Assembly (NCBI RefSeq): GCF_001650875.1
Contig: NZ_LXYI01000001.1
Location: 124,001-188,000, forward strand
DNA: 64,000 nt
Source: Sulfitobacter sp. EhC04
Lineage (GTDB): Bacteria > Pseudomonadota > Alphaproteobacteria > Rhodobacterales > Rhodobacteraceae
Reading direction: 5' to 3'
The notes beneath the pieces were generated by a model, which saw only the letters and a program-made list of their open reading frames with translations, was not told the origin of the DNA and made no database searches. Positions within the stretch are counted from its first letter, which is position 1; every line of letters begins with the position of its first letter. The translations under genes and the position numbers were made by a program. This document shows, piece by piece, positions 12,488-15,970 of the stretch.

Positions 12488-15400
12488 CTACCCCTGCAAC
12501 GCCTTCACGCCAATCTCATCCTCCGCCTGCGCCTTGATCGCCAGCGCCGCGGCATAGGCCCCGGCGGCGGTGGTGAAATAGGGGATCTTGTCGAACAATG
12601 CGATGCTGCGGATGCTCTTGCTGTCCTCGACCGCCTGCGTGCCTTCGGTGGTGTTCAGCACCAGATGCACGGCCTCGTCCTTCATCATGTCGGTCACATC
12701 GGGGCGACCTTCATAGACCTTGTTGACGGTCTCGCAGGCATGGCCGTGTTGCTTGAGCCAGGCGGCGGTGCCACGGGTGGCGACGATGCTGAACCCCTGT
12801 TCCAGCAGGATCCGCGCGGCGGAGAGCATGTCGTCCGTCTTGTCCATGTCCTTGATCGAGATAAAGACGCAGCCTTCGCGTGGCATGACGTTCCCGGCCC
12901 CCATCTGCGCCTTGAGGAAGGCACGGGGGAAGTCGCGGTCCCAGCCCATGACCTCACCGGTTGAGCGCATTTCGGGACCCAGCAGCGTATCGACGCCGGG
13001 GAAGCGGGCAAAGGGCAGCACCGCCTCCTTGACAGAGAACCATGGCATGTCGGGATCGGCCAGCGTCATCGGGTCGCCCAGTGGCAAGACGTCGGCATAG
13101 GCGGCCTGTTCGGGGTAGGGCGGGCGTTTGGGAAAGTTCGACAGCGGCTCGCCCGCCATGATCCGCGCGGCGATGGAGGCGATGGCTGAATCAGTCGCCT
13201 TGGCCACAAAAGGCACGGTGCGCGAGGCGCGCGGGTTGACCTCGATCAGGTAGACTTCGCCATCCTTGACTGCGAACTGGATGTTCATCAGGCCAACCAC
13301 ATTCAGCGCCAGCGCAAGGGCATGGGTCTGCTTGGTCACTTCCTCGATGATGGCGCGATCCAGCGAATAGGGCGGCAGCGAACAGGCACTGTCGCCGGAA
13401 TGCACGCCGGCCTCTTCGATATGCTGCATGATCCCCGCGACATGCACATCCGTGCCATCACAGAGCGCGTCGACGTCCAGTTCGACCGCGCCGGACAGGT
13501 AATTGTCCAGCAATACCGGGCTCTTGCCCGAGACAACAACCGCATCGCGGATATAGCGCTCAAGGCTTTGCTGATCGCGCACAATCTCCATCGCGCGACC
13601 ACCCAGCACATAAGAAGGGCGGATCACCAGGGGGAAGCCGATGTCGGCCGCGATTTCCAGCGCCTCGGCATCGGAATGGGCGATGCCGTTCCTGGGTTGT
13701 TTCAGGCCCAGCTTCTGCACCAGCTGCTGGAACCGCTCGCGGTCTTCGGCGAGGTCGATCATGTCGGGCGTGGTGCCAAGGATCGGGATACCGGCCTCTT
13801 GCAGCGCATTGGCGAGCTTGAGCGGGGTCTGGCCACCGAACTGGACGATGACGCCATGCAGGGTGCCGTTTTCCTGCTCGACCCGCATGATCTCCATCAC
13901 ATGTTCGAATGTCAGAGGTTCGAAATATAGCCGGTCGGAGGTGTCATAATCGGTGCTGACAGTCTCGGGGTTGCAGTTGACCATGATGGTCTCGTAGCCC
14001 GCATCCGTCAGCGCATAGCAGGCGTGACAGCAGCAATAGTCGAATTCGATCCCCTGGCCGATGCGGTTGGGGCCACCGCCGAGGATCACGACTTTCTTGC
14101 GGTCACTGGGGCGCGCCTCGCATTCCACGTCGCCCATCATCGGGGCTTCATAGGTGGAATACATGTAGGGCGTCTGCGCCTCGAATTCGGCTGCACAGGT
14201 GTCGATCCGTTTGAAAACGGCCTTCACCCCGACAGCAAGGCGTGCCTTGCGCACCTCTTCCTCGGTCTTGCCTGACAGATGCGCAAGGCGGGCATCGGTA
14301 AACCCCATCATCTTGAGCTGGCGCAGCCCGTATTCGTCGCCGGGCAAGCCGGTGCTGCGTACCACTTCCTCTGCTTCGATGATCTCGCGGATACGGTCGA
14401 GAAACCAGGGGTCGAACATGGTGATGCCGTGAATATCGACGTTGGACATGCCGTGGCGCATGGCCTGGGCGATGGTGCACAGCCGGTCGGGGGTCTGTTT
14501 GCTGATCGCCTTGATCAGCGCGGCACGCTCGTCTGGCGCCAGATCCCCCTCACCCAACCCTCTCCCCCGAGGGGAGAGGGCTCCCGCGCCGCTCGCAGCC
14601 GAGCGTGCGGCATCAGTAGAACCGCTCTCCGGGGACCGCCGCTCCCTCTCCCCCGAGGGGGAGAGGGCTGGGGTGAGGGGGGCGATACCGGGGATGTCGA
14701 TCTCGTCAAAGCCGGTCAGACCCGATTCCATCGACGCAAGCGCCTTTTGCATGCTTTCGTGAATGGTGCGGCCAATCGACATTGCCTCGCCCACCGATTT
14801 CATCGCGGTGGTCAGGTTGGGCTCTGAGCCGGGAAACTTCTCGAAAGCGAATTTGGGGATCTTTGTGACGACATAGTCGATGGTGGGCTCGAAGGATGCC
14901 GGGGTGACGCCGGTGATGTCATTGTCCAGCTCGTCCAGGGTGAAGCCGACCGCGAGTTTGGCGGCGATCTTGGCAATCGGGAAACCCGTCGCCTTGGAGG
15001 CCAGTGCCGAGGAGCGCGACACGCGTGGGTTCATCTCGATCACCACCATGCGCCCGTCGGCGGGGTTTACGGCCCATTGCACGTTGGAACCGCCGGTTTC
15101 CACGCCGATCTCGCGCAGCACCGCGATGGAGTGGTTGCGCATGATCTGGTATTCCTTGTCGGTCAGCGTCAGCGCGGGTGCGACGGTGATGGAATCGCCC
15201 GTGTGCACCCCCATCGGGTCCACGTTTTCGATCGAGCAGACGATGATGGCGTTGTCGGCGGTGTCGCGCACCACTTCCATCTCGAATTCCTTCCAGCCCA
15301 GCAGGGATTCGTCGATCAGGATCTGCCCCATGGGAGAGGCGTCCATGCCGGAGCGGCAGTAGAATTCGTAATCCTCGCGGTTATAGGCGACGCCGCCGCC

Positions 15401-15970
15401 GGTGCCACCCATGGTGAAGGCGGGACGGATAATTGCAGGCAGGCCGATATCTTCAAGCGCTTCGAGCGCAAGCCGGACCCCTGCGGCAAGATCCTTCTTG
15501 CCCTTTGCATCCTTGGGCGCGGTGCAGATCGTGGCGCGGGGGTTTTCGATGCCCAGCCGGTCCATCGCCTCGCGGAACAGTTTGCGGTCTTCGGCCATCT
15601 CGATGGCCTCGCGCTTGGCGCCGATCATCTCGACGCCATATTTCTTGAGCACGCCCATCTCTTCGAGTGCCAGCGAGGTGTTCAGCCCGGTCTGCCCGCC
15701 CATGGTGGGCAGCAGCGCGTCGGGGCGTTCCTTTTCGATGATCTTGGCGACAATCTCGGGCGTGATGGGTTCGATGTAGGTTGCATCGGCGAGGCCCGGA
15801 TCGGTCATGATGGTGGCCGGGTTGGAGTTCACGAGGATGACCCGGTAGCCTTCCTCCTTGAGCGCCTTGCAGGCCTGCGCACCGGAATAGTCGAACTCGC
15901 AGGCCTGTCCGATGACAATGGGGCCAGCACCAATGATCATGATTGATTTGATGTCGGTGCGCTTTGGCAT
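12488..15970 (-). CDS. carB: Carbamoyl-phosphate synthase large subunit, with in-frame insertion
   Basis: 1160 residues; usual bacterial CarB is about 1070-1110. Makes carbamoyl phosphate from bicarbonate, ammonia (from CarA) and two ATP, for pyrimidine and arginine synthesis. The order is an ATP-grasp carboxyphosphate half ([32 protein letters not shown]), an oligomerisation region, a second ATP-grasp half ([33 protein letters not shown]) and a C-terminal MGS-type regulatory domain ([20 protein letters not shown]). Residues about 430-476 are encoded by a 138-bp palindromic repeat in the linker between the first ATP-grasp half and the oligomerisation domain. The frame stays open. carA is not in the window. 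Confidence 0.97.
14545..14682. repeat. Palindromic repeat element inserted in frame inside carB
   Basis: Outer arms CCCCCTCACCC (14545-14555) and GGGTGAGGGGG (14671-14681) are inverted. Each end also carries a short palindrome of the CCCTCTCCCC/GGGGAGAGGG type, and the middle holds CGCTCG-CAGC-CGAGCG (14590-14605). The total of 138 bp is 46 codons, so the reading frame is kept. Read in carB frame it gives [11 protein letters not shown] at one end and [12 protein letters not shown] at the other. This resembles the CTCACCCCAACCCTCTCCCC-type repeats spread through many proteobacterial intergenic regions. Confidence 0.85.

Follow-up and report, generated by a model that had tools for sequence, protein, structure and literature searches.

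How does a long palindromic DNA repeat come to be read as part of an essential enzyme, and what keeps it there? This question is raised by carB, the gene for the carbamoyl-phosphate synthase large subunit, in a 64,000-nucleotide stretch of DNA from Sulfitobacter sp. EhC04, referred to here as the window.

The element and its host gene

carB occupies positions 12488-15970 on the minus strand, and its frame of 1160 aa is intact, with no stop. The palindromic element within it (14545-14682) measures 138 nt from arm to arm. The left outer arm, CCCCCTCACCC (14545-14555), and the right outer arm, GGGTGAGGGGG (14671-14681), are 11 nt each, and both inner hairpins (14558-14580 and 14644-14667) are perfect. 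Six related 9-mers are packed into 133 nt of the element. Folding was better than in 200/200 dinucleotide shuffles both as DNA (z -5.5) and as coding-strand RNA (-104 kcal/mol, z -6.2). The arms, the two hairpins and the folding confirmed the original prediction of a palindromic element with inverted outer arms and inner palindromes. The whole carB frame was also found to be open across it, as predicted, so that the element is read in frame as residues 430-476. A scan of 14300-14900 for promoter and terminator consensus sequences found none, and seven Rfam matches (E up to 1), all below the gathering score, were taken as chance. Opposite carB, an open frame of 182 aa on the plus strand (14279-14827) spans the element and gives no sign of being a gene.

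The window CarB exceeded the curated cut-offs of both TIGR01369 and PRK05294, with a full profile match. The genome holds one full-length carB match; the three others are ATP-grasp stretches with 25-28% identity. In two other genomes, G040 (L125) and G045, a frameshift seems to lie in carB or close to it, and may be an assembly error.

The alignment to E. coli CarB stops at residue 411 and resumes at residue 427, with the insert in between, and the Pfam oligomerisation domain of the window CarB starts at residue 488. An AlphaFold2 model of CarB made from 29 sequences (mean pLDDT 73.7, pTM 0.79) lacks secondary structure between a helix ending at residue 412 and a helix starting at residue 479. 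pLDDT is below 50 at residues 433-475, where the block means (26-30) are lower than anywhere else in the protein. Both the alignment and this least confident stretch of the model agree with the linker location that had been proposed. The model suggests that the insert peptide is probably a disordered loop; given the shallow alignment and a pLDDT below 50 in ten other segments as well, disorder is likely rather than proven.

Identity of the repeat

By its sequence, the carB element consists of two BoxC/PIT/TM_ECO repeats in inverted orientation to each other; these repeats are of the triplex type. The consensus of these repeats is 5'-CCCTCNCCC N3-6 GGGNGAGGG N3 GGGNGAGGG (Holder et al. 2015, PMC4666352). 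Copy a (14644-14679, plus strand; CCCTCTCCC-6-GGGAGAGGG-3-GGGTGAGGG) matches it exactly. The sole departure of copy b (14547-14580, minus strand; CCCTCTCCC-5-GGGAGAGGG-2-GGGTGAGGG) is a second loop of 2 nt instead of 3. Such a loop is present in 2 copies among the 75 family copies listed, copy b included, and it may be frame-restoring, since a loop of 3 nt would put carB out of frame. The two copies are separated by a spacer (14581-14643).

As described in the main text of Holder et al. (2015, PMC4666352), there are 3610 copies of BoxC/PIT/TM_ECO across 262 proteobacterial genomes, 23 of them in E. coli MG1655. The MG1655 copies are "always located intergenically" and include five inverted pairs; such loci are called unstable. 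The repeats were already known in the 1990s and have had no function assigned to them. PIT elements blocked DNA polymerase in vitro, those of E. coli had neither promoter nor terminator activity and no in vivo effect, and footprinting gave no support for stable triplexes in vivo. That the stems of the E. coli copies are better conserved than the loops was already remarked there. The carB element is like these repeats in stem sequence, three-block architecture, inverted pairing and proteobacterial spread (PMC4666352). It differs in that the MG1655 copies are all intergenic, a trait of location and not of sequence, whereas the carB copy is coding and kept in four species (PMC4666352). The second loops differ too, being TTA/CCG in the E. 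coli pairs and mostly others in carB, namely TT in copy b and CTG, CCG or TTG in copy a (PMC4666352).

The genome search suggested with the original prediction did find further copies, as the window genome has five hairpins at three places, two of which are inverted pairs. The full triplex motif was found in 15/295 genomes of the family sample and the reversed-pattern control in 0. A composite unit built from observed copies matched 239 plasmid records at 80-95% identity, most commonly in Sinorhizobium and Azospirillum. Four plasmid copies among the 40 matches listed lie under an annotated gene. Two of these are at gene ends and two are internal and in frame, in RbbA of Azospirillum sp. B510 and in a 3-hydroxyacyl-CoA dehydrogenase of Vitreoscilla filiformis.

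A Rickettsial precedent for repeats inside proteins had been cited correctly. The RPE is a palindromic repeat of 105-146 bp found in frame in conserved proteins, and in guanylate kinase its effect is given as neutral or slightly detrimental (PMC2229807). The carB element is likewise a palindromic repeat in frame in a conserved protein; the difference is that Rickettsia is an unrelated taxon, and the two are alike by description, not by sequence (PMC2229807). No mention of silent-site freezing of RPE stems was found in the accessible part of that paper (PMC2229807). No report of BoxC/PIT repeats in coding sequence, or of palindromic repeats in carB, was found in the literature covered, which was mostly open-access and without supplementary files, and neither carB nor carbamoyl occurs as a word in the main text of PMC4666352 or of PMC3733652. 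Within that literature, the original statement that no such case was known agrees with the search for carB but not for the type of repeat, which is already described (PMC4666352). What the present case adds is a coding copy in carB and the comparison of orthologues against a silent-site clock.

Age of the carB copy and variation of its stems and loops

The exact hairpin was found in 4/62 genus genomes, namely the window genome (G000), G041, G059 and G060. The same four carriers were picked by a protein search that used neither the hairpin arms nor the third strands and that matched 61 of the 62 genomes. Their best E values were 2.3e-169 or lower, with all 300 residues covered. For the 57 non-carriers matched, the best E was between 5e-109 and 7e-99 in 56 and only 9e-4 in G063; G004 gave no match. 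Comparing CarB from relatives, as had been advised, thus showed that only 4/61 matching genomes of the genus score high enough for a match that spans the insert.

The insert is in frame in all four carriers (4/4), each with 222 nt between the same anchors. The linker is 71 residues long in the carriers and 21, 30 or, in one case, 32 residues long in the other Sulfitobacter loci read, these shorter lengths being interspersed across the genus. Depending on the ancestral state, the net gain is 41 codons (vs the 30-residue linkers) or 50 (vs the 21-residue linkers). Because of this, an insertion of "exactly 46 codons", as first proposed, is not established, although the figure does agree with the arm-to-arm span. 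Among 40 carB sequences placed in a tree, the four carriers form one clade (support 99/99). Of these sequences, 35 represent the 62 genus genomes and five come from elsewhere; six loci were left out. The simplest reading of these sequences is one insertion before the four Sulfitobacter species split. A recent insertion, which was part of the original prediction, was rejected, since four species of one clade share the insert and the four-fold sites in the carB flanks alongside it are 35-49% different between them.

The same insert was not seen in the other CarB proteins surveyed. Among 186 distinct linkers surveyed in the family, CCCTCTCCC or its complement is present in that of the window alone. 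The insert-plus-flank peptide was matched in 43/295 family genomes, and the linkers of those matches with a carB locus held no other insert of this type. A search of the class matched 6/385 genomes, and the five besides the window were in frames of 55-239 aa that are not carB. The insert peptide had no match in plasmids by tblastn.

The short palindromes set as an inverted pair with a spacer are also reminiscent of REPIN/RAYT systems, by their published description. A RAYT partner was rejected, as a Y1 transposase is not consistent among the four carriers. In a search of 11 genomes, PF01797 was, among the carriers, above the cut-off in G000 only, below it in G059 and absent from G041 and G060, and it was found in the non-carriers G002 and G013.

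Repeats are error-prone, and contig C34 of the window genome ends just past another copy of this one. We nevertheless give almost no credence to an assembly artefact or a broken carB, because the same in-frame insert is present in four separate genomes and the carB profile match is full.

Across the four species, variable positions in the carB element number 0/54 in the stems, 7/16 in the loops (p 1e-5) and 37/63 in the spacer (p 9e-14). Third codon positions inside the stems were likewise frozen (0/18 variable). In the arm codons the third position was invariant in 21/23 cases vs 195/473 in the carB flanks (Fisher p 1.4e-6), and the best contiguous 23-codon stretch of flank had at most 18 invariant third positions. 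The hairpin arms belonged to the pattern used to search for carriers; the third strands, which make up 18/54 stem positions, did not. The constraint on the stems looks to be at the level of the nucleic acid, since they are frozen at silent sites and two non-carB loci are common to the same four genomes. The base of this result is four species and 54 stem positions, and the exact hairpin is absent from the other 58 genomes of the genus, both of which weigh against selection on the stems. Of the published findings on PIT elements, the block of DNA polymerase in vitro speaks for a kept structure, and the lack of an in vivo effect in E. coli and of support for stable triplexes there speaks against it (PMC4666352).

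The peptide motifs LTP[AT]LSP.GERE and LSP[RQ]GRGLGEG are common to the four species, as might be expected if the insert peptide were functional and conserved as protein. We consider this very unlikely because the stems show no change at silent third positions either, the CarB model has its lowest confidence in this segment and the same stem sequence is present in copies outside carB.

We think it probable that, after one old insertion that was tolerated as a protein loop, the stems have been kept by selection as a nucleic-acid structure. A single insertion of a BoxC/PIT/TM_ECO dimer into the carB linker would have taken place in the ancestor of the four-species Sulfitobacter clade. The extra residues would be translated and would be tolerated, probably as a disordered loop, because the linker separates the first ATP-grasp half from the oligomerisation domain. 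Selection, and not a mutational process, would then keep the two hairpin arms and the third strand of each copy, and the loops, the spacer and some of the encoded residues would drift within the limits of the frame. The structure may act in the DNA when the strands open or in the mRNA. The proposal of an insertion tolerated in a surface linker is supported as regards a linker repeat that is tolerated in frame, but tolerance alone is insufficient, as it leaves the frozen stems unexplained.

Two further repeat loci outside carB are common to the same four genomes. At one, a single copy follows what we take to be an aldehyde dehydrogenase gene (the dehydrogenase locus). At the other, a dimer lies next to a gene that seems to end like phnI, and beyond it there is a presumed phnJ-like gene (the phn-like locus). 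A fourth repeat place is found in G041 only. The carB loops are 6/3 and 5/2 nt long in all four genomes. At the dehydrogenase locus the first loop is 6 in four genomes and the second is 3 in three, and the loop lengths at the phn-like locus are 4 and 5-6. The stems appear largely frozen at these two loci too. Retention is imperfect, as the third strand of the dehydrogenase-side copy of G060 (L056) is interrupted by unrelated sequence and one third strand at the phn-like locus of G041 has a C at the N position. In G000 the contig ends within the phn-like copy.

Another explanation is that the repeat is a neutral passenger whose stem mutations are repaired by template switching or gene conversion among near-identical 9-mers. 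The six related 9-mers in carB and the further copies elsewhere in the genome could serve for this, and insertion into a permissive loop requires no function. However, homogenisation should erase locus-specific loop lengths, yet these are kept between species where they are readable, which argues against copying between loci. It should also erase the difference between the hairpin arms, which carry A, and the third strands, which carry T at the same place; this difference is kept in 63/75 family copies listed and argues against homogenisation within a copy. We therefore regard a neutral passenger as possible but not likely.

Palindromes in other carB linkers

In-frame palindromes of other kinds were found in the same carB linker of eight more genera in the family sample. 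The 186 linkers surveyed came from genomes within the 295-genome sample and were the top rows of searches with palindrome-bearing queries, so frequencies are biased upward. Linkers of at least 52 residues numbered 25/186, and nine of those had a hairpin stem of at least 8 (the window, G139, G127, G370, G228, G181, G174, G216 and G267). Because genomes with inserts are over-represented in the survey, the 295 genomes have at least these nine, and no rate can be taken from them. A stem-8 hairpin was also present in 3/161 shorter linkers, so stem length alone is no proof of a repeat. Longer linkers with an AIDKxxT-type ending and no stem of at least 8 were seen at L231, L234, L259, L277, L296, L332, L392, L414 and L415. 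A named MAG (L173) has a long linker with a palindrome of 10-bp stem, TCGAGGGCTGTCCAGCCCTCGA.

CCCGGGCTTGACCCGGG-like palindromes are present in 7/9 of the long palindromic linkers. In each of those seven genomes the CCCGGGCTTGACCCGGG-kind pattern occurs at 9 to 135 places, with 0 in reversed controls; some carB-linker palindromes deviate from the exact pattern counted. In other genomes it was found at 0 (G000, G013 and G225), 1 (G041 and G221), 4 (G086) and 221 (G192) places. The named genomes LSUCC0031 and 32-66-7 have palindromes in the carB linker as well. The pattern occurs at 10 places in 32-66-7 and at 2 in LSUCC0031 (L151) vs 1 in its control, so a repeat family in LSUCC0031 is not supported. 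CCCGGGCTTGACCCGGG-like palindromes were seen in frame, in differing reading frames, at L151, L161, L206-L208, L210, L212, L213 and L243.

By description, these palindromes seem to resemble the CGTC-type REPs (PMC3733652). CGTC/GTAG-tagged REPs lie within genes in several species, where dimers encode extra residues, and two Xanthomonas species have different REPs at about one site in recB (Di Nocera et al. 2013, PMC3733652). The main text of that paper has no Sulfitobacter, Roseobacter, Paracoccus or rhodobact. The window element is of another sequence type; the CGTC-type palindrome (CCCGGNYTYGANCCGGG, a pattern of our own) is absent from it and from all of G000, and G041 has it at 1 place. A third sequence type, triplex-like and of the CCCTCCCCC type, is inserted in frame at the same linker in G139 (L276). 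Elsewhere in that genome this insert has one clear match (93% over 40 nt) and one weak match (82% over 37 nt, E 0.08), and there are three triplex-pattern places.

In 74 full-length carB genes out of 80 named loci, stem-8 hairpins numbered 5 in 9201 nt of linker vs 26 in 237486 nt elsewhere. The binomial p of 0.005 is overstated, because two of the five hairpins belong to one insert and another (L193) looks like chance. On a poorly supported tree, 12 changes would account for the 13 palindromic rows, one of which (L209) has a degenerate palindrome only, and the starred branches force only 2 independent gains. The palindrome labels did not cluster on that tree beyond shuffles (132/500 as low). 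Judging from the linkers compared, palindromes have landed repeatedly in the carB linker, which is a permissive site for them.

This recurrence of unrelated palindromes, together with the position of the element between domains and the strong fold of the coding-strand RNA, would also be in line with a translational pause, in which mRNA hairpins would hold ribosomes back at the domain boundary and give the first CarB half time to fold ahead of synthesis of the second. We find this improbable, as pausing inside carB cannot explain the same stems in the non-carB copies, and long palindromic linkers are rare even in a sample biased toward them (9/186). A broader idea, which we put forward tentatively and think rather unlikely, is that unrelated palindromes dock repeatedly in the linker, are taken up in frame and are then retained because of their nucleic-acid structure. 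Such a structure could be a pause signal between the homologous CarB halves or a DNA structure acting in replication.

If the docking-site idea were true, the difference in conservation between stems and loops would be direct evolutionary evidence of BoxC/PIT function. Conservation of stems between orthologues of a coding copy has the advantage that silent sites serve as a clock, and here they have diverged while the stems have not moved. The result is a sign of structural constraint that can be tested, found in a repeat that has been linked to instability (PMC4666352) and is nonetheless fixed in an essential reading frame of four species. The repeated capture of palindromes in the carB linker also offers a natural set of insertions in which to ask why some protein loops accept repeats.
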